Assembly: GCA_029339195.1 (NCBI GenBank)
Contig: JAPTJF010000183.1
Coordinates: 48,436 to 112,435 of the forward strand
Direction: 5' to 3'
DNA length: 64,000 nt
DNA from: Micractinium sp. NFX-FRZ
Lineage: Eukaryota; Chlorophyta; Trebouxiophyceae; Chlorellales; Chlorellaceae
Shown here: piece after piece, positions 128 to 37,730 of the stretch
Layout of the letters: the number at the start of each line of letters is the position of its first letter
Position numbering within the stretch: position 1 is the first letter of the stretch
Translations under genes and position numbers: made by a program
Notes under the pieces: model-generated
The model's input: only the letters and a program-made list of their open reading frames with translations
Told to the model about the DNA's origin: nothing
Database searches by the model: none

Positions 128-1780
128 TCAGCTTGCCTCCACATAAATAGCACGTGCTTCTGTGTTCATCCACTCCACCTGGCCCCACCACGCCTCCCAG
201 ATGTCGCCCGCCTCCAGCCCCTGCGCTCCGTCAGCCGCCAGGCTGGCGATGGCCCCAAAGGCGGCGGCATACCCCTGGCGGCAGAGGGAAGGGGAGCAGC
301 AGGGAAGGGGATGGGCAGCAGGAGGGTGGGGGCCAGAGGGCGGGTCCCAGAGGGGGCAGGGCTGCTGGCAGGCGGCAGGCAGAAAACAGCATGCGTGGCG
401 TCGCATGTGAGCAGCCTTGGCAGAGCATGATGGTCCACTGCGCCCCCCCCTCCCCCCCCGGCACACCGCCCGGACTGTGCTCGACCCTGCGCCTGCCCAC
501 TTGCTGCCCCACCCCACCTCCTCTCAGGAAAGACCCACCACCCTGCCCCACCCACCCACCTCCACACGTGCCCACTTGCTGCCCCACCCACACCTCCCTC
601 CTCCCCCACCCTGCCCCACCCCACCCACCCACCTCCACCATGTCCTTGTGCAGCTCCATGCGCCCCGCCTTCTTGCGCCCCCCCATGTCGTCCCGGCTGA
701 CCTTCTCCAGAGGCAGCAGCTGCAGGCTTGGGGTCCCCCTGCAGAAGCGCCGCTCCCCCTTGCCGCGCACCACCTGCGGGGGAGAGCAGCCAGCTGTGCT
801 CAGGCTGCGCCCGGCCCCTCGCCGCCGCCGCCACCACCACCGCCACCAGCCAGGAGCGGCACTTGTGTTGCCGGCAATGGATCAGGGTCAGTGGCAGGCC
901 CTTCAGACCCACCTGGTTGGCTGCCTGTCAGCCAGGCATCCATCCAAAAGGGCATATGATCTAAGAGCGCCAGAGCTGTGGTGTCCCAGTGCCGCCACCA
1001 CCCCCGCTCTACCCCGCCCACCTGGTTGGCTGCCTCGTTCCAGGGGTCCAAGGGGCCCCATGTCTCGCTGAACCAGCCGTTCAGGTCTGCCGCCTCCAGC
1101 GCACCCTCCACCCGGCTCCTGGGAAGCGAGGAAGATGAGCAGGGCAGGGCAGGGCAAGGCAGGGCAGGGGAAGTGTGTGTCAGCTTGGGCCAGCGGCAAG
1201 GCCTGTACACAGGGCAGGGCAGGATAGGGTAGGGCAGGGCAGGAGAGGGCAGGGAAGGGCAAGTGTGCGTCAGCTGGGGTCAGCAGCAAGGCCTGTACAC
1301 AGGGATCCGTGTGCAGGAAGCAACAGTGAAAGGGTGGACCTGCGAGCCCTGGTGTGCGCTGCACATCCCCAGTGCAGGGCCGCCCCCCATGTGGCTCACT
1401 GTTCGTTTCCTGCCGCCTCCGCCAGCGCGGCGGCCAGACGCGGCGACAGCCAGCCAGCCCTGCAGCTGCCGCAGGTGCAGGTCGACTTCTTCTGCAGTGT
1501 GCAGATCACATGCAGCATCTCAATTTTAATTTCAGTGCAACGTAGTTTCACGAATGTCAGTGGCAGCACTGCTGGTAATTGGCAAGCTGGGGGGCGGGCC
1601 GGCTCCCGGGCCCAAGTGCCGCTGGCGGTGGCGGTGGTGGCTTGCAGGGCGGGGTGTACTCGAGCGCCAGTCATGGCGAGGCCTATACCCCCGCTGGCGA
1701 CGCTCTCGGCTCACTTTACGCTGCTTGGCCGGCCGGGTTTGGCGGCCGGCCGCCCCGGAAGCGGCGCGCTTGGGCGGCAT
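128..1780 (-). CDS. Small basic protein with C-x-C-G-x-C / GWLSPR motif, function unknown
   Basis: Five exons on the minus strand: 1780-1715, 1491-1400, 1118-1022, 773-639, 274-128. They join in consistent phase to a 178-residue protein. The N-terminus is short, basic and Lys/Arg-rich (MPPKRAASG...), which suggests nuclear targeting. Exon 2 carries CTCGSCRAGWLSPR, a putative zinc-binding Cys cluster followed by a GWLSPR signature. The C-terminal half is Trp-rich (DIWEAWWGQVEWMN). I recall similar GWLSPR motifs near Cys clusters in algal and fungal proteins, some with ankyrin repeats, but assign no function. The start at 1780 was preferred over an in-frame ATG at 1518 because a consensus CTGCAG acceptor lies just before the Cys cluster and a GTGAGC donor follows the MPPKR exon. 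Intron 2 holds a 90-bp tandem repeat and intron 3 a copy of the exon 3 end. Which promoter drives the gene is not clear. Confidence 0.75.
1170..1315. repeat. 90-bp direct repeat inside an intron
   Basis: Two similar blocks start at about 1170 and 1260. Each contains AAGTGTG(T/C)GTCAGCT, then a GCAAGGCCTGTACACAGG stretch, with GCAGG-rich spacer. They lie wholly in intron 2 of the GWLSPR gene. Confidence 0.8.
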
Positions 1781-3167
1781 GCGGGTGTCGGCACGAGGCG
1801 CAGCTAATCGTGCGACAACAGCGTGTGACGGTTGCAAGTGACCCGGCAGAAGGATCAACAACTTGCACGTGGTACAAACGCCGCTGGCTACACGTTCCCC
1901 AGTGTGGCAGCTGCAGCATGAGCACAGCAGGCCGGCGTCACGGCTGCGCCCAGCGGGACTAGCAATCCTGTGCAGCCTGATTAGCGACATCCTGTTCGCG
2001 AGTTGCCTGCCCCCATCAAAGGGTCATACATCCCCAGCATCAAGGATTGCTGGACAGCACCACTGCCGGGATGGCACAGCTCCCTCTCCGCCCGCCCCCT
2101 CTTCTTCTCTACGTCAATGCACCGCCTGCAAGGTACTGCTGCACTCACAGTCACTTCCCTTACAGTATGTGGGCAGCTACAGCATGACAACGGCAACCGA
2201 GCGTAACTGATTTTGTTCCATCACGACAGCCTGCTGCCTGCCACGCTGCCACCGAGAGAGCCCCAGCTGCTCCCAACAGCCGTGCTGCCGCGTCGTGCGC
2301 CGCCGTGATGGCAGCTGCCTGGCAAAGCAGGGCCCGCCTCTTCCTTGAAAGGCGGCCCGGGTGCTGGGGCGCCCGCCCCTGGTATGGCCTGCAGGTTGAG
2401 CCACGGTGGGCCAGGGTCATTCGTGCAGCCAGGTGTGCTTGGAACGGCAGCATCGCACGCGCAGCAGCGGCGGTGGGTTGCACGACGGCAGGCAGGCAGG
2501 CCTGCTGGGTCTAGCCTGCCGGCGGCACAGTGAGATAGCAGCAGCTGCAGCAGCAGCAGCAGCGCCCCATTTGGTTTGAGGACACCGGTTGGGACCCTTC
2601 CGAATGCACTGTTTGGCAGATGCTGCCTTTGCATAGAGCTGCGGTGGCGCGCTGCACGCGCTGCTTGATTGCAGGCTGGGGACGTTCGTGCGTGCTGACT
2701 TTACAGAAGTGGGCCTGCAACAGGCATCGCTGCCATGCCATGGCCCTGCCTCTCAGGTCTGGAAGCAGAGCGCGCCCCAGCACTAAATATACGTAGGATC
2801 GGGGGCCCAACCTTGCCGCCGCCCTTCGAAGGATTCTGGCTGTGGCTGCGGCCGTCGGCCGGGCCGCCCATGCGCCTGCAGGCACCGTTTTTGCAAATGT
2901 GTGAAGTGCTTCCAAACAATGAGTGCCAAAGCAACAGTTGGCGGCGGCAAGTGGCGGCAAATGGCGGAGTTGGCGGCAGCGTGGCCCGCCCGTCTCCTAA
3001 GCGAGCATGCATCCGAAGCGCTTTTTCGGCGTTTGGATTGCTGGAGTATGTTATCGCAATCAAAAGGACAAGCCCAGCAGGCCCGCTTGTTCGCGACCGC
3101 TGTCATCTGCGTTCCGGATGCGGCGCACCTGACATTGCTTCGGCTCCCGCTATTTAAATAACAATCA
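1781..3167. promoter_or_regulatory. Divergent intergenic region between the GWLSPR gene (-) and a secreted-protein gene (+)
   Basis: About 1.4 kb with no convincing exon on either strand; open frames here are short and lack splice-consistent continuation. It ends with an AT-rich TATTTAAATA box at 3151-3160, only 8 bases before the plus-strand ATG at 3168. Presumed bidirectional promoter region. Confidence 0.5.
3151..3160 (+). promoter_or_regulatory. TATA-like box
   Basis: TATTTAAATA lies immediately upstream of the ATG at 3168. It is the most obvious AT-rich element in a GC-rich region. Its closeness to the ATG implies either a very short leader or a translation start further downstream. Confidence 0.4.
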
Positions 3168-4598
3168 ATGAAGCTTGCGGCAGCCCTACTCTTCCTGCTG
3201 GCCGCTTGGGCCAGCACGGTGGAGGCCTTTACTCTGGCCCGGGCTCCACGCGTGGTGGACAGCGTCTGCGCTGGACGCAGCTGGGACTACCGGTAAATTC
3301 AGCGCGGCCGGTATTAATGTGGCCGGCGGGCGGGTGCGGGCGAGCCAAGTTGGGGGGTGCAAGAGCGGGCGGGCTTGCACACTAGCGGGAGCGGTGAGCG
3401 TATGCAACCGGTCCATGCATGTGCAATGTCCCCCATGCTCCGCTGACGCGCCCATCACTCTCATCCCAACTGTAGGTACCGTGTGGTGCGTAACCGGTGA
3501 GTGAAACTGAGAGGGTGCAAATCCTGCAGCACATCATGCAGCCACTGGCTGCACGCCTGGCAGCTGCCACGAGCTGCCTGATCAACAGCGGCCGCTGCTG
3601 CTGCCGCCGCCTCCTGTCCTCTGACCTCTCTCCCCAGCCCGCTCAAGCCTGACCCATCCTCTTCCCTGCCACTTAATTTCCAGCTACCGCGATGTGGTGC
3701 GTCGCAACTTTGCGCAAGAGGCGTTCATCATTACCGTGAAGGCAATCCGTGCTCAGGCCGTGACGAGCGGCGTGCTGCCGCGCGGCACCCGCATCGCCGG
3801 CTACCGCGCCATCAAGGGGTGCTACCATGTGAGCCTGGTAGCCTCCACCCAAAGTTCTTCTTGGCGCGCTGCTCGGCTCCTCGTGCTCTGCATTCCAAAC
3901 ATGCTCCTTACATGCTCCTTACGGTGTTGGCACGTGCCGCAGGCTAGCCAAGCTAGCATCTGCCATCGTGCCTGCCCTGCCTGCCTCTCACTGCTTTGCC
4001 TGAACACATGCCCCCGCGTCCCTCTCACCTTGCCTGCCTGCATGCAGAGCATCCGCCCCGGTCGGCGCGGCGCCCAAATCAAGGGGATGTACGAGTTTTA
4101 TTACATGGTCCGCTGGAGGCTGCCGGTGAGGTGCCCAGCAGCCGGCAGTAATTTGCAGCCGCCTGCGCTGCTGTGCTTGATGGTGCCCCATGCGCCCCCG
4201 CCTGCCGCAGGGGCGGCCCCGGCTGCTGCTTGCATGCAATGTGCCAGTGGCATTGCACCAAGGCACTGCACCGTGGGTGCAAGGACGCTATCAAGTGACA
4301 TTGAGCCTTGTACAGCTTGCGGGACGAGGGCGAGTGACTCGACATTGTCACGTCACGTGCATGCAGGCAGGCGGACCCCGCCAGCCTGGTGGGTGGCGTC
4401 CCAGCAGGCTGCACACACACATGCCATCGGGCAGTGCCCCATCCCTCAACCCCTCTGCCTCACCGCTGACCTCCCATCCCACCCAGTCCCCACCCGGGCC
4501 TGCAGACCGGCGTACTGGTCTGGAACAGCGTGGTCGTGACATCGGTCAACCGGCGCCGCCACCCGCATGCCCTTGTCATCAACGCGTGGATGTGGTAG
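3168..4598 (+). CDS. Small secreted protein, family not recognised
   Basis: Five exons: 3168-3292, 3476-3496 (a 21-base micro-exon), 3684-3828, 4048-4130 and 4487-4598, giving 161 residues with all phases closing. The N-terminus MKLAAALLFLLAAWASTVEA is a clear cleavable signal peptide, so the protein should enter the secretory pathway. The mature part is basic and rich in Tyr, Arg and Trp, with segments such as AFIITVKAIRAQ, GYRAIKGCY and MYEFYYMVRWRLP, and it ends NAWMW. The alternating hydrophobic pattern suggests a small beta-sandwich. A netrin-like (NTR/TIMP) fold is a possibility I cannot support further. It is convergent with another small secreted-protein gene at 6169-7307, but the two proteins are not visibly homologous. 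Confidence 0.8.
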
Positions 4599-6168
4599 CC
4601 CAATGTGGCCCGCCTCACCAAAACACCTTGGCAGCATGGCAGCCCTGGCTGCAGCACCTGCCTGCACCTGCAGGCTGCAACAGGTGTGGACGTGAGGGGA
4701 CACGCGCCAGGTGCATCATGGCCAGCCTGCAGCTGTGGCTGTAGCAGCAGGGGCCAGCAGCCAGGGTGCGGTGACAGGAGACGGCACGCACACCTGGCGG
4801 CTGCTGCTCCGCCTGCAGCCTTGGTATCCCAGCTGCAGCTGCAGCCATCCACAAGCTCGAAACCCAACAAAACATTTTGCCTGGCACCGCGGCCAGTGCG
4901 TGTTGCTACCCCGGCCCGCTGCTGGCTGCCAGAACACAACACGCCCCTCATGACAGCCAAGCTGCCCCCCGTTTCTAAGCCCCGCGCATGTATTCCCCAC
5001 TCCCCTCATCCGCATGTGTGTGTTCCCTCATCCCAGTTCGTGATTACACCCAGTTTTGCCGCCTCAGCCCTTTGACACTGACACCCTCCCCCCTGCGCAC
5101 TCCTCAAACACCCCACCTTCACCCAACATGCACAGCTTGCATCGCGCCTGCCCTTACCAAACAGCGCACAATGCCCCATGCCCTGCCACTCGCCTCCCCA
5201 TGCCGCTTCCAGTCGGCCCTCCACGCCACCCTTGAAGACGTTTCTCCCTGAACGATTGCCCAGCCGTTTGCCTTGACTGGCAGCACTGCACGCGGTCTGC
5301 GCGCCGGCCTGCATCAGGCAGGCTGCCTGCCCGGTCCCCTCGTGTGGCTGGCACTGCTGGCACTGCAGCCCCCATTGCAACCTACCCTGCCCTACCCTGC
5401 GGCCCTGCAGCCGCACACTGCTTGTAGCATGTGATTCTGCTGTTAGCATCTGAGCCTGGCTGGGCAGTGCGGGTGCACCACTGGTTTGTGGGGCGTGGGG
5501 CATGGGTGCATGCCGCCGTGGCCTGTTGCACGCAACGCGTGCGCCCGGAACATGTGTGTGCCAAGCTCTGCCTGGCTGGTGCAGCTGGAAGCACTCTAGT
5601 GCATCTGCAGCTCAGCTTGCACCCCTCTTGGTGCGGTGCTGCCCACAGCCTGCTTCGGCGCGCCCGGGTGCAGCTCTGCCAGGTGGTGCCAGCAGCAGTC
5701 AGGCGATGGGTCACAGTCACAGGGTTCGGTATTACAAGGGAGCTTGCGCTTGCAGAGGCAGAGGCACGCACGGAGGGTAAGGTCTAGATTGATCTGGATG
5801 CAAGGGGATGGGGTTCAAACACTGGGGCCCAAACGCAGTCTTACTCTGGAGCGTCGCCTTAGCAGACACCACATGAAGGTCGAAAGCAGGGCAGGGGAAC
5901 GCTAGGGTCGTGGAGAGGGGCAGGCACGTGGCTGGGGCGCTGCTCCTGCCGCTGCATGCCCCACCAGCTTCATGGAAGCGGGCAGATGCATCAGCTGGCG
6001 TGCCCCTGCCTGCCCCAGCAGCGCAAGCGCCTTCTGTGGGGCAGGCGGAGGCGGCATGCAGCGCAGCTGTGACCGACGGCAGCCAAGCGTGCCGGCAAGC
6101 TGTGGAGCGGCAGCGAGCGGTGGGCGCCAGCTCCGCTGCCGCCGCTGGTGCCGGTGTTGTTTGCCAGG
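4599..6168. other. Convergent intergenic region between two secreted-protein genes
   Basis: No supported exon on either strand. It contains the presumed 3' UTRs. A minus-strand TGTAA signal (TTACA at 5732-5736) is about 430 nt past the stop of the minus gene. A second TTACA is at 5044-5048. No plus-strand TGTAA was found. Confidence 0.5.
5732..5736 (-). terminator. Putative poly(A) signal TGTAA
   Basis: TTACA on the plus strand reads TGTAA, the usual green-algal polyadenylation signal, about 430 nt downstream of the stop at 6169. Confidence 0.4.
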
Positions 6169-7307
6169 TCAGCAAAAGCGCAGGGTGGAGGTGGCCTCGG
6201 GGTCGTAGCGGCGGTTGCCAATAAAGTAGTAGTAGTTCTGCGTGGGTGGAGAGGGGAGGGGAGGGGAGGGAGGGGCAGGGTGAGGTGTGGCCAGAGACGT
6301 TGGTCCAGGTGGGCTGGCGGCGGCAGGTGCGCTGGCAGGCCGGGAGGGAAGCGTGAAGGTACGAGGGCCAGATCATGGGCCAACTGTTTCAGAGGGGTGT
6401 CAGGCTGCACTGCCCGGCGCTCCCGGGCCCATCCCACTCACCCAGTGCTGGTTGAAGACCAGAGCCCGGTTCCTCCCCAGGTTGGCGGTGGCAGAAGTAA
6501 CCCTGGCAGTTGAGCTGTACCACCTGCACCAAAGTGGTGTGGTGTGGTGTGGTGTGGTGTGGGGCACAAGGCGGCTGGGCACATCGGAGGGGATGGCAGC
6601 ACAGGCTCCTCAGGCACTGAGTGCATGCGCAGGCGAGCACCACAGGGCTGCACCAAAATGCTGCATGGCGGCAGGCAGGTGTTGAGGACTAAGGGCGCGC
6701 GGGAATGAGCTGTCAGCCGCTGACCCGCCTGCCGCCACTGCCACTGCTCGCCCAGCAACGCTGCCTGGCACCTGGCTGTCATCACGCGGCAGCCAGCCAA
6801 CCAGCCTGCCTGTGCCTGTCTGTCCGTCATGCTTACCTGTAGTTGAACTTGCACCCGGTGGAGCAGTAGCAATTGATCGTGATGCGAATGGTCCGGTTGG
6901 ACTTGGACACGACGCGGCTGGGCTTCAGGCCGGTTTCGGCTGCGCTCAAGGCAGGCGCAGGGGTAGAAGGCACCCGAACTGCATCGCCATTCTCCCTGCG
7001 GCGGGAGGGTGGGCGGGGCAGGGGCAGGGGATGGTGGGGCGGGGCCCGCTCAAGCGCAAGCGTGTGCGTGGGGTATCAGGATGGGGTTGCAGTGGAGCGT
7101 TGGTGTGCAAGCGCTACCGTGGCGCTGCTTGGAGCAGGCGTGCACACTTTTCTGGTACAAGGTGGGTGCGCCTGGCACGGCACAGGCGGCGGGCACCTAC
7201 CCAGCTGGCTTTGCCTCGACAATAATGACGGACTCGCCAGCGGGCCTGGCCAGGGCGGCGCCACAGAGGAGGCAGAGCGCCAGGAGCAGCGCTGTCCGGG
7301 ATGCCAT
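6169..7307 (-). CDS. Small secreted Cys/Tyr-rich protein, family not recognised
   Basis: Four exons on the minus strand: 7307-7201, 6995-6837, 6523-6442, 6237-6169, giving 138 residues. The first residues MASRTALLLALCLLCGAALA form a signal peptide. After a Ser/Thr/Pro-rich linker the mature domain contains NRTIRITINCYCSTGCKFNY (including an N-x-T glycosylation site), then a Trp/Tyr-rich strand and a C-terminal Cys as the last residue. The small beta-rich, Cys-containing C-terminus suggests an extracellular or cell-wall protein. Introns carry simple repeats near their acceptors: a (GGTGT)n run at about 6534-6562 and a G4AG run at about 6248-6276 on the plus strand. Head to head with the F-box/LRR gene at 7870. 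Confidence 0.8.
6534..6562. repeat. (GGTGT)n pentanucleotide repeat
   Basis: About six units lie just upstream, in transcript sense, of the acceptor of exon 3 of the minus-strand secreted-protein gene, where the complement serves as a pyrimidine-rich tract. Confidence 0.8.
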
Positions 7308-7869
7308 GGTGCCTTGGGAGCAAGGCCTGCAGGGGGTGTTGGGATGGCAGCATGGCGGGGAGGGTGAGGATAACAGGATCGCCACTCTGGGCCCCGGGCC
7401 TCCGGGAGGCACTTGTGCCACCACCGCGCGCGCTTCTGCCTGGCCCAGGGCAGCGGGAGCACAGCGTAGCCCGATGAGGGCCATCCTCCGGACAGCTCGG
7501 GGTCCCCAATGGGCCCGGCCAATCCTGCGACCATTCAAACGGCCACACAGCCGGCCGACCGGCCAAAGATGGTGATCGTAGCAATGTTGGTGCCTACCTG
7601 GTGTTGACTTGGTTCCCGCTCTCAAATTGGAATTGAACGGGTGAAGAGGAATGGTAAGGCAGGCGCCGCGTAGCGCGAGAGGGGTTATGTAGGCCCGCAA
7701 GCTCTCGCCACTTCCCTGCAGCTTCCGTATCGCCAATAACCTCCGCGTTGGGCACTGGCGTAGGTCCACAGCACTGCCAGTGAGTGATCACGTTCGGGTC
7801 AGCGGCCTCTGTACTCTGCACGACAGTGAGCTGTGCGCAAGTCGCCAGGGCCCCGTCCAGCCAAGCCAA
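7308..7869. promoter_or_regulatory. Divergent promoter region, secreted protein (-) / F-box LRR (+)
   Basis: 562 bp between two start codons in opposite directions. No coding exon or clear TATA box was recognised. By position it should hold both promoters. Confidence 0.5.
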
Positions 7870-11351: not shown

Positions 11352-11377
11352 ATGGACCCAGCTCTCGCAGCTCAACT

Positions 11378-11410
<33 letters not shown>

Positions 11411-14400: not shown

Positions 14401-17400
14401 AGCAGCCACCGTTGCCACGCAGCTGCAGAATGCAGCAGCGGCAGCGGCGGCCGTGCCCACCGCCGTGGCGGTGCCTGCCTCAGCCCCTCTTGCTGCCTCC
14501 ATTGCAGCAGGCATGCTGCTGCCCACGGCGGGCACAGTTGCCTCCGGCGCTGTGCATCCATCCATGCTCGGCTTGGCGGCGGCCCCTGTGCCAGCCATCA
14601 GCCCGCCTGCTGTGCCGGCAGTAGGGTTTGGCACGGGGACCGCGGCCCTGATGGCTGGCACAGCAAGCACAGCAGGCACAGCAGGCACAGCAGGGGCACA
14701 CTACCCGGCGCCTCATGCGGCCTACCACGGCGCACTGGCGGGCAGCGGCGGCGGGTCAGCTGCCAGCGGACAGGCCCACTCCACCAGCACCGTCTCCTCT
14801 GCTGCGCTGGCGCCCTCGGCGACCGCAGCGGGGGCAGCGGCAGCGGCAGCGGCGGCAGCAGGCCTGGCTGGCATGTCAGCCGTTGCAGCCCCGCATGCCT
14901 TCTCCTCGCCTGCCTACCACGCCGCCATGGCAGGGGCCGCAGCAGCCTTGGGGTCAGGGCTGCCACCTGCCCTGCCGGCCGCACAATGGGCCGGCCTGCC
15001 CCTGGCCGCTGCCCAGCAGGCCCAGCAGGCCCAGCAGGCGATGCAGTTGCAGATGGGCCTTTCCAGCAGGGGAAGCTCAGCAGGCACCCCGCCTCCCGGG
15101 AGCAGTGCTGCGGCCGCCGCTGCTGTTCGCACCCTGCAGAGCCACGCCACGTCTGCCTACCAGAGCGTGTCTGCCTGGTCGCGTGACGCAGCAGGCGTGG
15201 CACGCACGGTGGGTTGCCTTGGAAGGGGCTTCGGGAGGGGGCCTCAGCATGCGCTGCCCTGCCAGGCTGGGCCATGTGTCACTTGACGCTTGCGACCCTA
15301 CCACGTCTAGCACTGGCTTGATCGGCATGCGGCGTCGGTCCCCCTGTCCCCTCGCTCTCGCCCCCCCCGGGCCGTGTTGCTGGCTCCCAAAGCCGCTGCC
15401 CTGCACAGATCAGACTGGCTTTGAGGGAATCAAATCACTCGCCGACATGTCGGTCTTGCCGGGTGCCCCTGTGCCTCTCTCCTCCCTCCCTCTTTCCAGG
15501 TCAAGGTGGTGTGCAGCAGCGGCGGCAGCTTTGCCAAGCTGTCCTCCAGCGGGGCACTGGAGTATGAAGGTGGGCAGGGATTCAGGGACGGCGATGGGGG
15601 GCTGGGCACCGCCCAGCTGCCATGCCGCGCTGTGCCACACTGCACATCTGTATGCAGGCGCCTGCATAAACTTATGGTGTATGCGTTGGGTAGGATGAGT
15701 GCATGGCAGTGTGTGAGGCCACGGCCATTTGCGATGCCGGGGCCGCAGCCCTCCTGGGTACCCTGCCTGCCTCCCTCCCTGCTCCCTGGGTTTTCTCTCT
15801 GCAGGCGGGGAGACACGCCCAGTCCCCACATCCCTCCCGCTGCAGCTACCGTGAGATGGCACACCTGCTGCTGTCTCAACTTCTCAAATGTGTTGTAACT
15901 TTGCAGGCGGCAAGACACGCCCTGGTGCTTCCCATCCTGCTCCACTGCGACGGCCAGGAGCTCCGCTGCCTTCACCATGCATCAACATGCGTCCGCCCCG
16001 CTTCCACTGTCTCCCTGCAGGCGGCGACACGCGCCTCATCTCCATCCCCTTCCACTGCGACTACCACGGCCTGCTGGAGGCGCTAGAGAGGACCACCGCC
16101 CCGCTGGGGGGAGGCAGCGCCGGCGCCGGCAGCTCAGACACCTCGGACGCCGCGCCACGCACTTTTGTGAGGACGCACCCTTGTGGTTGGGGAGGGGGGG
16201 CCACAGAGCGTGCAGTTGTGTGCGGGCTGGCGTCGATGTGAGAGCAGTGGTTTGGGGTGTGGCTGCTGCGGCGCTCTGCTCCACGCTGGCGGCAGGCCTT
16301 GGCGGTCGCCGCAGCAGGGCGGCTGGTCTGGCCCGGCCCTATCGCAAGCTTGCCGCCCCTCTCCTGTCCCGCGTTGTCCACCTCAAGAGTCCTTGACTAT
16401 CCTGACCGGTGGGGATGCAGAACCCCCAAATCAAGTATCGGCTCCCCTCGGACCCCAGCGTGTGGGTCGACCTGCTGGACGATGATGACGTGGCGGTGAG
16501 TACAGAGGCGGCAGGGGGTGACGTGGCGGTGCAGGGTAAGACTTGTGCAGAGCGCCCAGCACTTCCAGTACGCCCCGCTGCAGGCGAAACGCGGCCCTGT
16601 TTTGGCCTGAAACAGAGGGCTGACCTGGCGGTGACTGGCAGGGGGTGGCGTGGCCCCATAGGACGTGTGGCCGCCATTTCAAGCCTTTCCCGCATCTCGC
16701 TCGTTCCGCTTGCTCACGCTCAACCCTTTCGCCGCACTGGCCACTCACCCTCTCATCCTTCCTCCAACCCCTGCCGCCGCTCTTGTTTGAATGCGCGCCG
16801 AGCCTGTGCACTGTACAGGCACAGCCGATATCTCTTTTAACCGACCTGCTCACTCTCCCCTCCCCCCTTCCGCACCATGAATCTTTCCTCTGCAGCTCAT
16901 GTTTGACGAGTATGACGAGCACCGCAGCGGCGCCACGTCAGCATACAAGCTGCACCTCTTTGTGCAGGCATGTGTGTATTTTGGCATTGTGTGTAGTGCA
17001 AGGGGGCTGGCCGGCAGGGTGATGAGGTGGGGGGCCAGTGGCAGCAGTGCCGGCGGGAAGGGTCACAATGTGTGTTTCAAGTAGAATGAAGCAGATCCTG
17101 GGAAGTTAACATTAATGAAGTAATGAAATGCCTTAATGACCTAAATCCTGAGAAGTTGACGAGGCACGCGCCAGGCCAATGCCCCTCAACAATATGACCA
17201 CATGACGACTTGAAAAGTAGAACCCAACCTGCCCCGCCTGCAGTGGCGCGACCCTCACGACGTCAGTCTGGCTGATTCGGAGGTGCACAGCGGCGGTCCA
17301 GGGCTCGGCAGCGGCGCAGGACAGCACCAGATGGCATCCGGGGCCGCGGGGCATGCGTGTGGGCGGGGGGAGGAGCGGGCCGGAGGCGAGGGCGGCAGCT

Positions 17401-20400
17401 CAGAAGCAGGTGGGGGGGTCTTGCAGGCGGGCAGGCAGGCAGGTGGGGTAGGCACCCCTGAACATGCGGCCGCGCTGCATGCTGCATGCCAGGGCGCCTG
17501 GCAGTTCCAGAGTGCAATGCACTACTGCGTATCACTAGGGGGGTGCCGCGCTCTCAACGCTGCTGCTGCCCCTCCCCCAATATTGCTGCAAACCCAGCAG
17601 GGCCTGAGGTGCCATGCTCAGACGAGGCAGCGGCCGCTGCTGCTGCCACAGCTGCTGCAGCCGCAGCGGCCTCCCAGAGCCTGGCCACCCGGACGCAGGT
17701 GACACTTGACAGGGGGCAGTTGGTGGGGTCGGATGAGTCGGGGAGGCGCACTGCACCTGGGCCAGTCACCCAGGCTGTGTGAGCCCCCACACGTGACACA
17801 GTCCTGCCGTCCGCTTTCCGCACCCATCGTTTGCAAGCCACGCCCACCCGCCCCGCCGCCGCCGCCCTCTCCTGCCCTGTGCTGCCCCTCCCGTGGCAGC
17901 AGGCGCGGGAGCAGCGCCCCACGGGGGCCACTTCCTCCTCCTCTGCTGGGCTGGACCTGGCTGGGTTGGTGGACAAAATGGAGATCATACAGCCAGAGGA
18001 CATCCAGCTGCTGCGCTTCCTGGGCAGCGGCGGGTGAGGCAGGGGGTGGGGGGCTGCTGCTGCACTTGCGTGAGAGGAGGGGTGGGTGAGTGGGAAAGGG
18101 CTGCTGCGTTACCTGGGGAGCGGCGGTTGAGGGGCGTAGGGGAGGAGGGTCAGGCAGGTGGGAGACGCCCCGTTGGACAGCGGGGGGCTGGCAGGCTGCC
18201 TGCCCAGCTGCTGCACTTCCTGGGGAGCGGCGGGTGAGGGGGTAGAGGAGGGGCAGTTGGAGGGGGGGGGCACTGCCAGACGGCGGGGCGCTGGCAGGCG
18301 GGCTGCCCAGCGCCTGGGGAGCGGCAGGTGAGTGGTGAGGGGAGGCGGGAGGGGGAGGCACCGCCGGACAGCCGAGGCGAGGGGGTAGGCTGGCTGCCCA
18401 GCCTGGCTGCACGTGTTGGGCAGTGGCAAGGGGTGAGCTGAGAGGGATGGTGTGGGGTGCAAGCTGGGGCGTGAGGATGGGTGACCCATCCATCCATCGC
18501 GCTTTCTTGGCAACGAGGGCACAAAGCGAGGCGGTGGGTGTGCCACCTAGCATTGCACACTGTCGGAAACACACGGCTTGCTCTGACCTCAACCTGTCTC
18601 CCCTGCCCGCTCCCTGCCTCTCCCCCTGCAGTTTTGGGGATGTGTACCTCGGCAAGTGGCATGGCTGCGAGGTGGGGCGGATTGGCGTGTGCCCCTGCAC
18701 CCCATTGCCTGCTCGCACCACAGTGCGCCCGCCCCGTGTGAAGATGCGACCTCTTCACTGGCCACGCCAACATTGCGCCCTCTGCCCACATACCTAATGT
18801 CACCAGCCAGCAGGGAACCTTTGTCGCCAGTGCACTTTGAGGCCTGCCCAAGTTGGCCTCTTAAATCCTGCCCCACTTGCGTGCAGGTGGCAGTGAAGTG
18901 CCTCAACCCCTCGCTCTTCTTCGGCGGAGGTGAGGGCAGGGGTGTGCCAGGCAGTAGGGCGGGGAGTGGTTGGCCTCGCGCGCTCGGCAGCACCCAAGGC
19001 CCCGCAGCTCCACCGCAGCACAGCCCTGTGCCACAGCAGTGCTAGCCGCACCCTCCGCATTTGCTAGCCGTAAGCACTGCGCCGCCTACGTCCTCCACTG
19101 CCCTTGCCTGTACACACACCCACCTCTCCCCTCCCTCCAGGCAATATGAGCTTTGTCAACCGAGCTGCGAATTGCAGACCTGCTGCGGCTCCCCCACAGT
19201 GCATCTCACCCCCTGCTGCCGCGTTCGCCCGCTGCTGCTGGCAACCTGCCCACCTGTGCAGCATCTTGGATGTTGTCCTGAGCGTCTTGGCCCACGTAGT
19301 AGGACTACGTGGCCCACGTAGCAGGACTACGTAGTAGGAGCATGTTCTCTGTACGTAGTCCTGCTACGTAGTCCTGCTACGTGGGCCACGTAGTCCTACT
19401 GGGCCAAGACGCTCAGGACAACATCCAAGGTGCTGCACAGGTGGACGCAAGCAGCGCACTCCTGGGTGCAAGGGACTGCAAACCCGCTACAGCCTCTGCT
19501 GCGCATCCCGCCCACGCTGTCTTGCTCACCCATGCGTGCTCTTGCACCCGCTGCTGCTGCTGCAGGCGACCTGAGCTCCGTCAACCGCAGCACACCCTGG
19601 ACGGAAGGCATGTTGCAGACCTGCTGCGGCTCCGCCAGTGCACTTTACTCCTGCCTCTTGCATTTGCCCGCTGCTGCAGGTGGTGACCTGAGCTCCGTCA
19701 ACCGCAGCGCCATTCTGGACCTGATCAAGGAGGCAGACCTGCTGGGGTCGATGAGGCACCCAAACGTGGTGTGGGTGAGTGAACTGAGCCACAGCCGCAG
19801 CCGGGCAGGGGCCCTGTCGGGTGGACAGCCCCCTGCATGCCGCCGGCAGCGAGGCAGCGCTCGCTCGGCGTGGCCCCTGCCCGCTGCCCCACGCTGCTCT
19901 ACGCCTGCTTCTTGCTTGTGCTTTCCATCACACCCCCTCTGCACCCGCCACATGCCTGCCCCTGCCCCAGATTTACGGCATCGTGCTGCCCACGCTGCCC
20001 GCCGAGCCGCCCAGCGGGGCCAGCGCCAGCGCCAGCGGCGACAGCCTGGACGCCGGCGACAGCCCCTGCCCCGCCTCGCCAGGTGGCGCACAGCAGGCCG
20101 AGGCTGAGGCCGCCAGGGCGGGTGGCAGGGATGGCGGGGATGGCAGCGGCAGCGCTGCCGCACGGCAGGCGCAGCAGGAGAAGCGGCAGGGCGATGTGGT
20201 GGAGGCGATTGCCAGCGGCATGCGGCGCAGCGGGATGACCCCAGGGGTGGTGCGCCCTCCTGCCATGGTGGCAGGTACGGCCGGGAGGCAGGGCAGGGTG
20301 CAGTGCAGCCCTTGCTGCGTGCAAGGATTCCCGACCTGCGACTGGTGCTCCAGCCAGCGTGAAAACATGGTTCATTCAGCGCTGCCTGCTTTGAGGGCGG

Positions 20401-30259: not shown

Positions 30260-33200
30260 TCAGGTCTCCATGGGCGCCGCGCCCCCACCGCCTCCTCCCG
30301 CCGCCGCCGCCGCCGCCGCTAGCCCGCCCGCTGGTGCCGCCGCTGCCGCCGCGTGTTGAGCGCCGCAGCCGCAGCGCCGGTTAAACAGCAGCTCCTTGAT
30401 GACCTGAGGGGAGGAACAAAGAATGAACCAGCCGGTGAGGGGAAGTGTAAGAGAGAGAGATGTTAATTGGGAGGCAGCGCCGGTTGAAGAGCAGCTCCTT
30501 GATGACCTGAGGGGGGCACAGGGGCACGTTGAAAAGAAAGGGCAGAATGCATAAGACAGAAGATGTAAACGGGAGGCACAGGTGACTGAACAGCAGCTCA
30601 TTGATGACCTGAGGGGGGCACATTGAATAGAAAGGGGAGGGAGTACGAATCTTGAGAGGGGAGAGCTTGATTGGGAGGCACAGACAGTTGAACAGCAAGC
30701 AGCTCCTTGGTGACCTGAGGGGGCGACACAAACACACATGGAGACCGGGGAGTACGAACAAGAGATCGAGGGTTTGATCAAAGGCGCAGGCAACTGAACC
30801 GCAGCTCTCGGTGGGGTATCCAGCTTCTGTGCATGGGAGCCATATGCTGTGCAACAGTGATTGGGAGGAGGGAAGTGGGTTTGGGAGGCAGGAGGCAGGA
30901 CATTTATGGGAGGCAGGCATGGGTGGCTCTGCCTGCCCTCGGCTGGTGGGTTGCGACGTGCGGAGCAGCTGCTGCCTACGAGCAGTGCGCCCGGCTGTGT
31001 GCGGAGACTTCTGTGGGCAGCGCAGCGAGAGGCGGTTTCGGACAACCCCAGCCCTCCAAGCCCGGCCCACCCACCTGGGAGGCGAGGCCCTTGATCTGCT
31101 CTGCCGCCACGCGCGCCGTGTCCCGCACCACCTGCTCCAGCTTGCCGTCCTCTGCAGGGCATAGCAGGAAATAAATAGCCAATAAAGGGCAGGCCAGGCC
31201 TTGATTGCTTGCTGCTGTGTCCCCATCACCTCCTCAAGCTTGCCGTCCTCCCCGTGCAAGGGGGGCGGGCAGGGGCAGACTGAAAGCAGGTCAGGCCAGC
31301 AGGCGGACAAAGCAGACGGGCAGACAGGCGGAGGGCCAGCAGGCAGCGGTACCCTGCTCACCGCACACTCCTCCTCTGCCTCTCAGCCGCCCGCCAGAAT
31401 ATATCATTCGATGCTCTTCGCATGCCCCCTCCCCCCGCCAGCACGGGCCAGCGGCACGGCGACGGCAGCCCCTCCCCCCCCTTGCGTGGGCTTCGGGCAG
31501 CCGGCTTACCTTTCTTGGAGCTGGGCCCCGCCACAAAGCGCCCCATGCGCCCGCTGCTGCTGACCTGGCTCTCCACCGCCTCCAGCTTCTTGCCTGCAGC
31601 CCGGGTGGCATACGAGGGGGGGAGGGGCGGGAGGCGTGAGCGATGGAGCGTTTGGGTGCGAAGAGGAGCAGCCCGCCCGTGCGTGCCGAAGAGGGTCCCG
31701 GGTTCTAGTGTGCCTATGCAGACAGGCAGGCAAGACACGCGGGGCTCTGGGTGGGGGCGGGGCCAACGGACACGCAGCGCTGGCCCCTCACGTAGGCAGG
31801 CAGGCAGGCAGGCGGGCAGGCAGGCGGGCAGGCAGGCAGGGAAGCAGGCGGGCAGGCGGGCTTCTAAGCGCACTCCCCCCTGGGCCCCTCACCAATGTCT
31901 GCCAGCTGCCCCGCCACCAAGTCGCGCGTGTTGAGCAGCGGGTTGGAGGAGAGGGCGTTCACCCAGTACCTGCCAAACAGGAGCATGGCGGGGCGTGGGG
32001 GAAGGTTGGGGTGCAGGGTGCAGGACATGCCTATTGCCAAAGAGAAGCAAGGCGGGGTGTGGGGGCAGGGTGCTGGGTGTCACGCACGGGGCGAGGCCAG
32101 GGCGGGGCAGGGTGATGGCGTGGTTTGGATGTCGCACCCGTCGTCGTGATTCAACTGCCATGCAACACCCACAGCCCACCGAGGCCCCCCCCAGGTCCAT
32201 TTTCGGCCCACCCTAGGTCCCCTCCCGTCCCTGCCCTTCCCCCCTCACTTGTTCCACAGCAGGTCGAGCAGGTGTGAGTCCAGGGAGGACTTGAAGAAGG
32301 TGATCTCAAGGGGGTAGTACTGCTCAAGGAGCGGGGCGGCGGGGGTGGTGCAGGGGGCGGTACAGAGTTGTGTGAGCGGCACGGCAGTGGGTCGAACAAC
32401 AAACGCACAGCGCTGGGTCGAAGAGCAATCCCAACAACTGCACGCAAGTAGTGGGCGATCAACAGGCACCCGCCCCCTCACCTGCTCGGCGTGCACCCCA
32501 CCTGCTCAGGTTGCCTACCCCAGCCCCATCCGCCCACCTGCTTGGCGTGCACCCCAAAGTCCTCGATCTTGTCCAGCGGGATGGTCTGGTACTCGCTGGG
32601 CCCCTCCTCGGGGGGCTTGTAACCCTGCAGGGGCAAGCGGGGGAGGCGGGGAGAGGTAAGGGGTGGGCAGTGGGGCCAAAGGATGGTCTGGTACTCGGTA
32701 AGGACCTCTGGGGGGGCTCATACCCCTGCAGGGGGGCGGGGGAAGCGGGGGAGGGGAGGAGAGGGGAGGTGCCTGTGTAGCGGGGCCAAGGGATGGCTGC
32801 ATGCATGCCATGCCCCCTTGAGCCTCCCTCCTCCCTCCGCACCCTGCTGCCAGGTGCAGCCCCCTCCACCCATGTGCCCCACCCCCTCCCCCTCCCCTCA
32901 CACCGCTGGGCGCGTGCGGAACACCACACGAACCTCCACCCTTGCCCGCCTGCTGCAGCCGAGCACCCACAAACCCAGCATCACCGAACACATTTGCAGT
33001 GCACGCATGCACAGCGCACACGCAGCGCACCTCTGGGTACGTGCGGAACGCACCAATCTCCACCTTGCCGGCAGCAATGGTGCGGAAGGGGTCCACCACG
33101 ATGGCCAGGAAGGGCTCCTAGAAAAGAGAGTAGAGGGGAAGGAAGGGACAAAGGGGTTGGGTGCATTTGTGTGGAGAGCGGTGGGGGCCCCACCACGATG

Positions 33201-34956
33201 GCCAGGAAGGGTTCGTGCAGAGCAGAGAACAAGGGACGGGAGGGGCAAGCAGGGGTCAAGAGTTGAGAGGGGATGGCGGGTGGGTGGGAGGGCATGAGGG
33301 CGCACCACGAATGGCTCAGGAAGGGTTCGAGAGAAGCAGGGAGGCAAGGGAGGGAAGGCGCAGGGCACAAGAGGATGGGTGCATGGGTGCACGGGCAGTG
33401 GGGCCCACCACCAATGCACGGCAATTGGCTGTCAACGGGCGGGGAGTGGCCGCGGGCCCGACTTAAGACTGGGCCACCCCTGCCGCTGCCAGCTCAGCAT
33501 GCCAGCTCAGCACCCACCTGGTACTTCTGGTTGGTCATTTGTGTGCCCACATCGATGCCCGACAGCCAGCAGCCGTACCCCGGGTGGCTGTGGTACCACC
33601 CCACAAGGTTCTCCATGCGACCAGAGGCCTGCAGGCGGAGAGTGTGGCGGGGAGGGCACGTCGACTGTGGAAAGCAAGTGCATGCAGGGCGGCACTCTTT
33701 GGACTGCCTGCACTGCCGCGCTTTGATGGCATCACAGGCGGTTCGCCCCCGTCAAACACCCCGCCCCAGCCCTGAACCCACAACCTTGCAGCGTTGCAAA
33801 GGAAAGGGGAGGCCCGCCCATCCCGCCTGGCATGCTCCGTCAGGAAGCTCACCAGCCGTGGGCCCTCCCCGCCCCGCTCCTTGTACCACACAGAGGCTTC
33901 ATCAGCAGCAGTCCCGCCCCTCGTTTCGTCACCGTGCACGCCTTCAGGGAGGCTGTCGGCGCCATGCACTTCAGCACCAGCCTCTTTTATAGCCCTCCAA
34001 CCAATACAATTGCTGCCCTTCAACTAAAACCACACCTCGGACAACGTCTCCAGTAAGCCCACCATGCACTCGCACGCCAATCAGGCCAACCAGGTTCTGC
34101 TTGATCCCTACAACTTCAGATGAATGACTCTCAAATTAACCCCACCCCACCCCACACCCACCTTGCACGTCTCCAAAAAGTCCACCATGTACTCGTACGC
34201 CTCTGCCCCCGCGTTCACCCGCGTCTCCGTCCCCTCCACCGGCAGCGCAAACGTGTCGACGACGATGAACTCGTTGCCCTGGATCTTGCCCTGCAGGGGG
34301 TGCCAAACAGGGGAGGAGCGGGCAGGCGGCAGGCGTCGAGCACATCCAGGCGGCACCAACCACTAGGGCTCACTGCGGCGGGAATGCACCATGCTGCAGT
34401 CTGCACCTGCTACAGGCAACTTGTTGCCGGGAGCTCAACGCGAGCCGTCCACAGGTGCTGCCTGCTAGGGCACATCGTGGTCCCCCACCGCTGCCCTTCC
34501 TCCACCCCACACTGCGATTCGGCGGCCCCTCTCCCAAGGCTGCACGCTCCCAGCCCACCTGCATGACGCCCATGACCTCTATATTGCCCCCGCTCTTGGC
34601 ATGCATGGCCATCTTCAGCAGCGCCAGCGCGGATATCCGCACCCTGCAGGGAGCAGCCGGCAAGAGTTGGGAAACACGCGGTGGCAACACGGCGCATTGG
34701 CGGCGGCGGCGGCTGGCAAGAGTGATCGCGCGCGCCACGGCCCGCGATCGCTGAACCATCCGCCCTCCCCGCACCTCTTGAAGAACTGAGGGTCGCGGGC
34801 CCACGGCTTGGAGGCCTGGATGGCCTTTTGCTCCTCAGCGTCGTAGCGGTAGAGGTTGTCCAGGTCGCTGGGGCCCGCTACCTGCACATCGTTCTCCAGC
34901 TCCCACCGTGCCTGTGCATTCGACACCATGGGCTGCTCCCCCTGCGCCTGGCTCAT
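30260..34956 (-). CDS. CSN5: COP9 signalosome subunit 5 (JAMM deneddylase)
   Basis: Eleven exons on the minus strand: 34956-34775, 34643-34559, 34290-34162, 33628-33518, 33117-33031, 32624-32538, 32319-32249, 31969-31893, 31593-31510, 31151-31075, 30403-30260. They give 377 residues, close to the ~360 of plant CSN5. The MPN+ domain has the JAMM zinc site: Glu in [10 protein letters not shown] and [14 protein letters not shown] (H-x-H-x7-S-x2-D), so the protein should be catalytically competent. It removes NEDD8 from cullins, thereby tuning SCF-type ligases. Other family landmarks are [25 protein letters not shown]-like [19 protein letters not shown] and a C-terminal IKELLFNRR. The extreme C-terminus is an Ala/Gly-rich tail. 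Introns 4, 5, 6, 9 and 10 contain degenerate copies of exon junctions. Head to head, 235 bp apart, with the plastid-protein gene at 35192. Confidence 0.95.
30404..30830 (-). repeat. Ladder of four copies of the last CSN5 acceptor junction
   Basis: CCCCTCAG|GTCATCAAGGAGC-type segments recur with exon-equivalent starts at 30506, 30608 and 30714, and a weaker one near 30812. The true exon starts at 30403. Spacing is 103, 102, 106 and ~98 bp. AG is kept in the first three. Confidence 0.85.
31199..31262 (-). repeat. Copy of CSN5 exon 10
   Basis: A segment 98 bp upstream of exon 10 repeats its start (GAGGACGGCAAGCTTGAGGA versus AGGACGGCAAGCTGGAGCA). It continues with weaker similarity to the ATCAAGG(C/G)CT part of the exon. 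Confidence 0.8.
31795..31862. repeat. (GCAG/GCGG)n tetranucleotide repeat
   Basis: About 17 units of GGCA/GGCG in intron 8 of CSN5. Confidence 0.9.
32479..32740 (-). repeat. Copies of both borders of CSN5 exon 6
   Basis: Upstream, a copy of the acceptor and about 50 exon bases starts at 32725, 101 bp from the true start at 32624, with CTGCAG intact and GAGTACCAGACCATCC shared. Downstream, the exon end GTGCACGCC(A/G)AGCAG recurs, ending at 32482 and followed by GTGAGG. Confidence 0.8.
33118..33420 (-). repeat. Copies of the CSN5 exon 5 acceptor region
   Basis: Two clear copies and one partial copy of the start of exon 5 (GAGCCCTTCCTGGCCATCGT) plus its pyrimidine tract lie in intron 4. The alignable starts are near 33214 and 33328, 97 and 114 bp apart. 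In these copies the AG before the exon sequence is lost. Confidence 0.8.
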
Positions 34957-35191
34957 AGTGCCTCGCTGCTGTCTTCCCTGGCCTCTTCCTGCTATCCGTG
35001 TATATTCTGACACGGCTGCATGCCACGATGGTAGGCGTCCGAGACGGCAGGGAGACCGGAAGCCGCAGTCAGTGAGCGCAGCAGGCTCAGCAGCTCTCAT
35101 CGGCCCAGGCAACCTGGCGGATGGCCTCGCTGCATTGCCACATTTTCTGTTGGACAGACACCGAGTTGACTGCCACCGTCACAGAGCAGAC
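34957..35191. promoter_or_regulatory. Compact bidirectional promoter, CSN5 / plastid-protein gene
   Basis: Only 235 bp separate the two divergent start codons. A TATATT motif occurs near 35001. By position both promoters and 5' UTRs must be contained here. Confidence 0.6.
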
Positions 35192-37634
35192 ATGCAGGCC
35201 TCCATCGCCACCGCCGCCCTGCTGCGACCCTGCCCAGCCGCCCCCCGTGGCGGCAGCACCTCTGTGCAACCCTTCCGCAGCAGAGCTGCCAGCGCGCCGC
35301 GCCGCCACGCTGCAAGCGCTGACTCCGCCGGCCGCCCCTGCCGCCGCCTGGCAGCAGCAGAGGGCGAGGCCGCCACCCCGGAGAGCCTCACCGCTGTCCA
35401 GGAGCTGGATGCGCTGATTGATGCACTGATGGCCAAGCGCGGCGCGCAGGAGCTTGCGCAGACAGTGGTAAGCGCAGCGCCCATCTCAGCCTGCGGCAGG
35501 TGCAGGCGGCAGTGCAGGGGTGCTGTTTGCTCTCTGGCAGCAGCGCCGCGCCCCTGCTTTGTTCACTTTTGTAACCCTGCAAGCGTTTGCGTGCAGGCTG
35601 AGAACATCATGTCGTTTGACCAGCGCTTCTGGCTGCGCCTGGCCACGCGCTCCGACTCTTCTGCCGACGAGGAGGAGCGGCAGCAGCTGGCGGCGCTGGC
35701 CAAGGTGTGGAGGCGGGTGGGGGTGTAGTGGGAGAGGGTCTACAGAGTCTCGGGGCTGCGGGTGGGGCTGTGGGCACGGGGCCAACATCGCCTCCTGCTG
35801 GGCTTCCGCCGCTGCCTCACCCATTCCCCCTGCTCGCCGTGTTTGTTGCGCCCGGTGTTTTGGGTGCTTTCTGCAGGTTCTGCTGCACCGTGCTGAGCAG
35901 TACCGCCCCCAGGGCCCCAGCCTGACCCGCACCCTCGGCTGCTGCTTTTTGTGCCCTCTGTTCTCTCCCACTGCAGGTGGTGATGCAGCTGGTGGACGAG
36001 ATGGTAAAGCGCACCAACGAGCAGCTCAGCGAGTCGACCAGCCTGCTGCAGGACATACTCAAGGCGGCGGCCGACCCCCAGGTGGGGCTAAGGGGGAAAT
36101 CTTGAAAGGGGGCAGGGTGGGGCAGGCAGGAGGCCGTTGGGGGTGCACAGCGACGGTAGTGGCGGCAGCAGTGGGGCAGGCAGAGACTTGTTGGGATTGG
36201 GTGTTCGGTGTGTGGCGGCAGCGGTGGGGCATGGAGGAGGCCGTGGGGGGTGGATAGTGGGGCAGTAGCAGCGGCAACGGTGGCGCCGTCGTCTGCAACC
36301 CAGCCCACCTACCTGCGGGGCGACGCTGGAACGCAGCCAGGGCTTCTGCACCGCTTGGGACCCCTCCTTCACCTCCCGAATGTACCATCCGCTCCGCCAT
36401 CCTTTTCCACCACATCCCCACTGCTGCCACTTTCCGCGCCGAGCACCCCTCCCTGGCGTGCCTGCTTATTCTTCCCCCTCCCCCCTTTCCCCCGGCAGTC
36501 GGGCGAGTGGCAGCTGCCGCTGTCGGCCGACAAGCTGGCGGCGATGCGGCGCGTGATGGCCGACAACCCGGCCGCCCTGGATGAGGGCCTGCTGGCCTCC
36601 TGCTACTCGTGGATGCGCAAGGCGTCGCAGGACAAGATGGATGGTGAGCCAGGGGTAGGGTGGAAAGGATGCACATAAGGGTGGACATAAGGTTGTCCTG
36701 GGTACACGACAATTGAAGGAGGAGGAGGGCCCTGGGTGGCTCCCCCCGCCCACACCGTAACTTCCACTGCTGCTGCTGCTGCTGCTGCTGCTGCGCCGAT
36801 CTTCCCTGGGCCCCCCACCGGTGACAAGATCTACCTTAGCTGACTCCAGCAATCCTCCTGCAGGCATGGTGACGCTGCGGCAGCACATGCTGCAGCTGTG
36901 TCCTGACCCTCTGCCGCCGTCTCATTCAATTCCACCCGGCCCCTCTCTCCCTGCGCAGGCATGGTGGCGCTGCTGCAGAAGGTGCTGCAGCTGTACGCCT
37001 GCCACCAGCTGAGCCAGCCGCAGGCGGGCAACGGCGGCAGCAGCGGCAGCGGCGGCGATGCGCTGGTCGACGAGCTGCTAGCCGCCGACGAGTCGCTGTG
37101 GGCGCGCCTGATACGCCAGCGCGCCGGCGAGGGCAGCGTCAGGTGCGCCCTAGCGTAGAGCAGGCGTCCTTGGGGGTGGGGTGAAGGGAGGGACAGTTGC
37201 TGGCTGGCCCACCTGGAGGGGTATGCATCAGGCTCGTGGCCAGGCAACTGCCGCACGGTCGCCTGCTGCCTGCCCTCCACCTGGCACTTTGCCACCACCT
37301 CTTGCTGGGCATCCATCTGTCATCTTCCCATCCACCCTCTCTCCTTTCTTCACGCCTGCCCCCCCTCTCCATCCCGTCCCACGTCCCTCCTCCCTTCCCA
37401 CCTGCCCCTGGCATGCTCCCTCCCCCTCCCGTCTCCCACATTCCTCCCCCCCCCCGCCCCCCCTTCCCTTTGTGCAGCGAGCCCGCCTTTATGGAGGCGC
37501 TGCAGCGGCGCATGGAGGCCGTCGTGCTGGGCCTGCCCTCGGGCTCCTATGCACAGCGGGTGCAGGCTGAGTACCTGAAGGAGCTGGAGGAGCGCGCCAA
37601 GTCAGCGTTCGCTGAGCTGGCAAAGAGCGCGTGA
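35192..37634 (+). CDS. Plastid-targeted helical protein, function unknown
   Basis: Six exons: 35192-35467, 35597-35704, 35977-36081, 36499-36643, 36959-37142, 37478-37634, giving 324 residues. Residues 1-55 are Ala/Ser/Arg-rich and poor in acidic residues, a typical chloroplast transit peptide. The mature part is predicted to be all-helical, with segments such as FDQRFWLRLATRSD, SLLQDILKAAADP, LPLSADKLAAMRRVM and LASCYSWMRKASQDKM, and a coiled-coil-like C-terminus (YLKELEERAKSAFAELAK). It may be related to plant plastid proteins of the At4g37920 type; this is a weak impression. Intron 4 contains a copy of the exon 5 border, and the 3' flank repeats the last coding bases. A TGTAA signal follows at 37837. 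Divergent from CSN5. Confidence 0.85.
36857..36910 (+). repeat. Copy of the exon 5 acceptor junction (plastid-protein gene)
   Basis: CCTGCAGGCATGGTGACGCT at 36858 mirrors GCGCAGGCATGGTGGCGCTG at the true exon 5 border. The exon-equivalent start is 36864 versus the true 36959, a spacing of 95 bp. AG is intact and similarity extends through CTGCAGCTGT. Confidence 0.85.
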
Positions 37635-37730
37635 AGGGGCTGAGCTGGCACGCCGCCTGCCAGCGGGCCTGAAGAAGGGCGTGCCGCTGTCAGCACTCGC
37701 TGAGATGGCAAAAAGCGCGTGAAAGAGTGG
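37590..37730 (+). repeat. Tandem copy of the last coding bases
   Basis: The gene's end, TTCGCTGAGCTGGCAAAGAG then CGCGTGA, recurs 88 bp downstream as CTCGCTGAGATGGCAAAAAG then CGCGTGA, so the coding tail is duplicated in the 3' UTR. Confidence 0.85.

Follow-up and report, generated by a model that had tools for sequence, protein, structure and literature searches.

Border copies in four genes of the window

The window, by which we mean the whole 64-kb stretch of DNA that was analysed (G000:C183:48436-112435), holds a GWLSPR gene, a Raf-like kinase gene, CSN5 and a gene for a plastid protein. A sequence-only reading had reported repeats of exon-intron junctions in these four genes, and all four were confirmed by reading of the DNA together with scans. 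The copies are given below, with the distance between copy and source (lag, in bp) where one was assigned.

908-942, minus strand: GWLSPR gene, copy of the donor border 1022/1021, lag 108; partly, and wrongly, called a 12-nt exon by the HMM gene finder
15787-15922, plus strand: Raf-like kinase, two acceptor-border copies (15787-15820 and 15889-15922); the real exon starts at 16021
18097-18345, plus strand: Raf-like kinase, donor ladder with copies at about 18097-18134, 18204-18239 and 18313-18345; the source exon ends at 18033
19141-19200, plus strand: Raf-like kinase, older and more decayed copy of the 19680 acceptor border, recognised by eye
19553-19591, plus strand: Raf-like kinase, acceptor-border copy, lag 117, source exon start 19680
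30464-30728, minus strand: CSN5, acceptor ladder in the last intron, source exon edge 30371-30403
31221-31249, minus strand: CSN5, acceptor-border copy, lag 98, exon edge 31151
32679-32731, minus strand: CSN5, acceptor-border copy, lag 101, exon edge 32624
32899-32928, minus strand: CSN5, donor-border copy, lag 127, exon edge 33031
33185-33330, minus strand: CSN5, two acceptor-border copies (33185-33214 and about 33299-33330), exon edge about 33117
34039-34078, minus strand: CSN5, donor-border copy, lag 123, exon edge 34162-34201
35877-35895, plus strand: plastid protein, weak acceptor-border copy, lag about 99, source exon start 35977
36854-36899, plus strand: plastid protein, acceptor-border copy, lag 95, source exon start 36959
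37689-37723, plus strand: plastid protein, last codons and stop codon (37601-37635) copied into the 3' flank, lag 88

The ladder in the last intron of CSN5 has three copies whose exon parts end at about 30506, 30608 and 30714, at lags of 103, 102 and 106; these three nearer copies all keep the pyrimidines and an intact CAG, and a fourth relic can be made out by eye at about 30785-30808. The donor ladder of the Raf-like kinase has lags of 93, 107 and 94, with a weak further rung seen by eye at about 18399-18437. In the kinase copy at 19563, a small indel masks an intact AG. The copy across the stop codon of the plastid protein gene is a clear one, and the process is thus not confined to splice borders. 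A long inverted repeat, with arms 88% alike over 195 bases, lies among the border copies of a Raf-like kinase intron (19250-19444); a genome-wide search for it gave no second copy.

Sample and gene models

The sample comprised the window and 24 ten-kilobase stretches (L002-L020 and L022-L026), 304 kb in all, from one green-algal genome of 66 Mb in 838 contigs, which the sequence-only reading had assigned to the Chlorellaceae. Exons and introns are predictions from sequence by a small HMM gene finder that was trained on these same stretches, with a single hand-built gene and typed consensus strings for the splice sites as its starting point. It predicted 585 introns in the 304 kb, with GTGNG donors and pyrimidine-rich TGCAG acceptors. 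Its CSN5 model agreed with the proteins of three relatives except for tiny false exons and one acceptor, called at 33114, for which these proteins place the correct site three bases on (TAG/GAG). Bits of border copies were mistaken for tiny exons at 913-924 and 32724-32725. Among the best 120 matches listed in a search with CSN5, the top one was 93% alike (on contigs of at most 1,332 bases) and the closest named organism was Parachlorella kessleri, at 78%. Rfam gave nothing at gathering scores on the 64-kb window.

Tandem Repeats Finder (TRF) arrays with a period of 40 or less, which make up 6.4% of exon, 6.8% of intron and 3.5% of other bases, were excluded before counting, as were low-complexity matches of the ungapped scans and the stretches L001, L021 and L027-L035. 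Gene calls with fewer than 200 coding bases were counted as non-gene.

Excess of border copies over chance

For each predicted exon border, the first 30 exon bases (18-29 where the exon was shorter) were sought in the adjoining intron at lags of 45-180, and a score of at least 12 was taken as a border copy. Across the 304 kb, such a copy was found at 41 of 1084 borders, compared to 0 of 1084 when the introns were shuffled. Thus, at about one exon edge in 25 the neighbouring intron contains a decayed version of that edge, typically some 100 bp distant, and the recurrence beyond one gene that the sequence-only reading had described extends past the window. When any lag was allowed, 42 of 1041 borders had a direct copy, 2 an inverted one and none a match in a random other intron, as would be expected of the local tandem-duplication process of about 100 bp at exon borders which that reading had proposed.

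Scans for local repeats point the same way. An ungapped scan of the first 254 kb gave 95 such repeats, whose lags peaked at 80-130 bp; two runs on Markov controls gave 7 repeats, none within 80-130 bp. In a gapped scan of the 304 kb at lags of 80-130, 122 repeats scored at least 22 versus 0 in one block-shuffled control. In the search by exon border, weaker scores were likewise enriched (e.g. 27 versus 3 in the score bin 6-8).

Anatomy of the copies

The 41 border copies divide into 20 at acceptors and 21 at donors, so that both sides are affected, as had been claimed. Median lags were 100 bp for acceptors and 116 bp for donors, and 33 of the 41 lay within 75-135. The scale of about 100 bp in the earlier claim of a unit length of 'mostly 90-115 bp' therefore stands, whereas the range was drawn too narrowly (interquartile 94-111 for acceptors and 109-133 for donors; full range 66-180). 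Introns at borders with a copy (score at least 13) had a median length of 357, against 237 at borders without, in agreement with the suggestion that the process lengthens introns.

Copying was concentrated at the very edge of the exon: for windows starting 0, 15, 30, 45 and 60 nt from the border, copies were found in 42/1041, 30/988, 4/909, 4/825 and 0/674 cases. By gapped extension, the exon part of the unit spans 22-93 nt, with a median of 41, and 32-128 bp are left for its intron part; a fixed exon size, suggested by ungapped extents of 22-52 nt, was dropped on these gapped values. Simulated breakpoints placed uniformly, but leaving at least 45 bp of intron, gave a median exon extent of 44-46. 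Since uniform breakpoints are compatible with the observed extents provided that about 45 bp of intron remains beside the working site, a special 100-bp machine is not required. Contrary to this machine-free reading, repeats with lags of 20-59 are much rarer than those with lags of 60-160 (6 as against 57 among matches of at least 24/30), and windows that start 30 nt into the exon have very few copies (4/909).

The intron side of the unit is related as well, with a median anchored score of 12.1 against a baseline 95th percentile of 11.5. As this homology exceeds baseline, whole units were duplicated in at least about half of the cases. Border composition was considered as a predictor of copying and rejected, the differences being small and within about two standard errors (G content at copied versus other borders 0.178 versus 0.216 for acceptors and 0.457 versus 0.423 for donors). 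Splice borders themselves are a possible target of the duplication.

Do the copies have a function?

Protein-level constraint was assessed in 34 of 52 repeat events, namely those with at least 12 exon bases facing intron. The resulting pN/pS of 0.53 (95% interval 0.41-0.68; pN 102/735.7, pS 61/232.3) is the value expected if the exon alone is constrained, and hence the copies are not protein-constrained. Frame is not favoured either, the lags of the 41 copies leaving remainders in numbers of 13, 13 and 15, and none of the copy sequence appears in the CSN5 proteins of three relatives. The suggestion that the copies supply alternative splice sites thus finds no support on these three counts, and mutually exclusive or alternative exons were rejected for want of coding constraint and frame preservation. 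As for the AG or GT, said to be usually intact, it is so at the ungapped lag in 23 of 41, which is a lower bound because small border indels hide intact sites; the claim stands in part, and we give little weight to the departure from an assumed 0.72 (p 0.035). Most copies look, as far as the DNA itself can tell, like relics of local duplication rather than a working part of the gene.

Position and age of the repeats

Two observations depart from plain duplication followed by decay, the first being location. The 93 clusters of repeats at lags of 75-135 comprised 54 exon-intron, 27 exon-exon, 8 intron-only, 2 intergenic and 2 exon-intergenic clusters; a scan with linear gap cost gave 56, 22, 6, 6 and 3 for the same classes. 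The 27 exon-exon clusters, which include coding repeats and unresolved cases, were left out of the location comparison. The sequence-only reading had staked the pattern on an excess over mid-intron and intergenic repeats, and this excess is clear (54 versus 8 and 2). Random units of 80-130 bp would take in one border with at least 8 exon bases in 26.7% of cases, fall within an intron in 30.4% and be intergenic in 16.4%, and simulation predicts border clusters near parity with intron-only ones. Even so, 54 of 62 clusters were at borders where 32-34 were expected (P 7e-9 to 4e-8). Detection bias alone was rejected as the source, since the simulated advantage of border units, 1.24-1.34-fold, is too small; an assumed three-fold border advantage is also rejected (P 0.005), whereas a six-fold one is compatible with the data (P 0.33). 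The contrast is weaker in a strict ungapped set (at least 27/30, lags 60-160), with 13 exon-intron, 5 intron-only, 1 exon-intergenic and 0 intergenic repeats. Of these five intron-only repeats, one forms part of the CSN5 border ladder, and two more (in L010 and L026) contain border relics recognised by eye.

The second departure concerns age. For copies whose exon half matches at 28/30 or better, whole units simulated with uniformly distributed ages, uniformly placed breakpoints and 0.45 indels per substitution had a median intron-side score of 39, whereas the five observed cases scored 9.3-20.1 (p 0.0004). The bins of 25-27 and 20-24 agree (12 and 24 observed; p 0.0002 and 0.002), so that the exon half of the copy is more similar than the intron half in all three. 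Hypermutable introns were rejected as the cause of this contrast on the evidence of one paralogue pair (window 52877-54760 and 55315-57340), in which introns evolve about as fast as fourfold sites (intron substitution 0.15-0.18; fourfold divergence 12/62). This pair is a tandem of related genes with signal-like N termini. Genome-wide searches with six ladder loci, made with a view to dating the ladders through paralogues, returned no second ladder copy.

Further copies were noted in two stretches outside the window, L016 and L020. At L016:8627-8818, a donor border has a downstream copy that agrees at 58 of 60 positions; it lies at a lag of 132 bp, and the other 72 bp of the unit are missing from it. 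At L020:4410-4545 there is a 29/30 acceptor-like copy at a lag of 93; the HMM ends its gene at the upstream copy, and the downstream one is perhaps the true exon. Copy 1 of the L020 ladder equals the real exon in its exon half, whereas in its intron half it lies nearer to copy 2 (0.65 versus 0.57) and shares a gap with it, few columns being involved. Such discordance between exon and intron halves is absent from the CSN5 ladder.

Origin of the copies

We read the copies as what is left of direct duplications that arose locally across an exon-intron border, for the most part 80-130 bp in size, and whose exon half was the longer-lived; we put the probability of this reading at roughly 0.45. A duplication would be tolerated when the splice site in use retains at least some 35-45 bp of the intron that belongs to it, the spare border would then become intron, and the intron halves of both units would decay freely. 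The exon half would outlast them because one partner, the real exon, is held constant by selection, and the exon might also now and then rewrite the intronic copy by template switching, gene conversion or unequal exchange. Ladders would reflect repeated duplication at the same border. Were the exon half longer-lived, visible units would be expected nearly all on borders and exon halves would look younger; six-fold greater persistence would suffice for the border bias. Since constancy of the exon is too weak an effect (1.24-1.34-fold), introns do not evolve faster and the copies are unconstrained, renewal from the exon is favoured, and the discordance in the L020 ladder hints at it. However, no rewriting event was observed in the 304 kb of this one genome, which counts against renewal, and some young copies that have no intron-side homology, such as that in L016, speak against duplication of whole units. 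A further-reaching version, which we regard as doubtful, would make exons the master templates that rewrite the decayed echoes of their own edges in adjacent introns, a one-way concerted evolution whose direction would be set by purifying selection on the exon as the intron half drifts away, with introns growing in steps of about 100 bp.

The main rival to a longer-lived exon half, in our judgement unlikely, is copying aimed at the border only, which would place 30-50 nt of exon edge and the splice site 60-80 bp into the intron without the rest. Triggers might be, for example, stalling at G-rich 5' or C/T-rich 3' intron ends, R-loops or splicing-linked damage. The predominance of border clusters (54 versus 8 intron-only and 2 intergenic), the sharp drop in copying between offsets 0 and 60 inside the exon (42/1041 to 0/674), the L016 copy lacking 72 bp of its unit and a slight extra skew of G content at copied borders would all suit such a process. 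Against it stand the intron-side homology above baseline in about half of the cases, composition differences within about two standard errors, and a copy that spans a stop codon, where no splicing takes place. Were nothing border-specific at work, random tandem duplication, neutral decay and the geometry of short introns would have to suffice. Random units do often strike one border (26.7% versus 30.4% for introns and 16.4% for intergenic DNA), pN/pS is neutral and the excess is weaker in the strict ungapped set (13, 5, 1 and 0), but this account, already disfavoured, is rendered improbable by the 54 border clusters where 32-34 of 62 were expected (P 7e-9 to 4e-8) and by an intron side too diverged for its exon side.

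Less probable again is that the copies are functional, as alternative or decoy splice sites or as regulated poison segments. The three nearer copies in the last CSN5 intron, with their pyrimidines and CAG, and the conservation of exon halves relative to intron halves might suggest so; the pN/pS of 0.53, the lack of frame bias, an AG or GT that survives at the lag in only 23 of 41 copies, which is a lower bound, and the absence of the copies from the CSN5 proteins of three relatives argue otherwise. We consider it very improbable that an introner-like mobile element or faulty assembly produced them, even though units of similar size recur in unrelated genes. Each copy matches its own border and none of 1041 borders a random other intron, and the six ladder loci, when searched genome-wide, found themselves and nearby matches; one of the six also gave three short matches elsewhere, within its exons. 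The copies are separated by substitutions and indels, which makes an assembly artefact, a ground on which the pattern might have fallen, unlikely.

Relation to known duplications and introns

Gao and Lynch 2009 reportedly described internal gene duplications that may include borders or whole introns, and the copies described here resemble these in lying within genes and taking in borders. In plants, the fresh breakpoints of tandem duplications made by break repair or paired nicks show joints that are blunt or have microhomology. A single duplication across a border has been described for the potato RdRp gene, in which a direct duplication over one intron-exon boundary created a new spliced intron and an extra exon (PMC4974935). 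That duplicate joins the 3' end of an intron to the 5' part of the exon that follows and keeps the splice signals of the parent border (PMC4974935). Our copies are similar in kind: direct ones outnumber inverted ones 42 to 2 at 1041 borders, and the intron side is related above baseline in about half of the cases. The potato report concerns one gene and a new spliced intron (PMC4974935), whereas we find many borders, both sides and ladders; and unlike in potato the copy stays in the old intron, no new spliced intron or exon being evident in CSN5, the gene compared with the proteins of three relatives.

The Rogers model and Hellsten 2011 describe how introns are gained when an exon segment that contains AGGT is duplicated in tandem (PMC3443670, PMC2891723); our copies share with this the local tandem duplication near splice signals. 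In that model the whole new intron is duplicated exon and the lag equals intron length (PMC3443670, PMC2891723), whereas here the copies lie within longer introns. Intron birth of this type was rejected: a search for the end of exon 1 at the intron end and the start of exon 2 at the intron start found none among 565 introns at score 12; score 10 gave 1, compared to 0 in the permuted set, and score 6 slightly more than the permuted set (7 and 5, against 2 and 1). Introners are copies of one element in the introns of many genes (PMC9860276). They too are recurrent, intron-tied units in many genes, but each of our copies derives from its own neighbouring exon, and no family shared across genes was found at the borders (0/1041) and ladders compared, which are a subset of all introns. 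A literature search, which mostly missed subscription papers, yielded no account of genome-wide border ladders.

If our reading is right, intron length in this lineage would grow in discrete, border-anchored steps, and about 4% of borders (42/1041) would have a visible spare border in varying decay. Such spare borders would keep cryptic splice sites in constant supply and document the lengthening of introns, and would offer a natural test of whether selected sequence preserves an unselected neighbour through conversion. Users of gene finders should be cautious, as border echoes can be called tiny exons.

Other repeats

At L010:5466-5647 there is a young 88-bp intronic tandem duplication, alike at 80 of 88 positions, whose unit contains a relic of the downstream exon start recognised by eye. 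The window also carries a 770-bp array of about 109 copies of the 7-base unit CACTTGT (38329-39095) and a pair of related genes at 39330-41749 and 43378-45883, which from the look of their sequence we take to be ankyrin-repeat-like.
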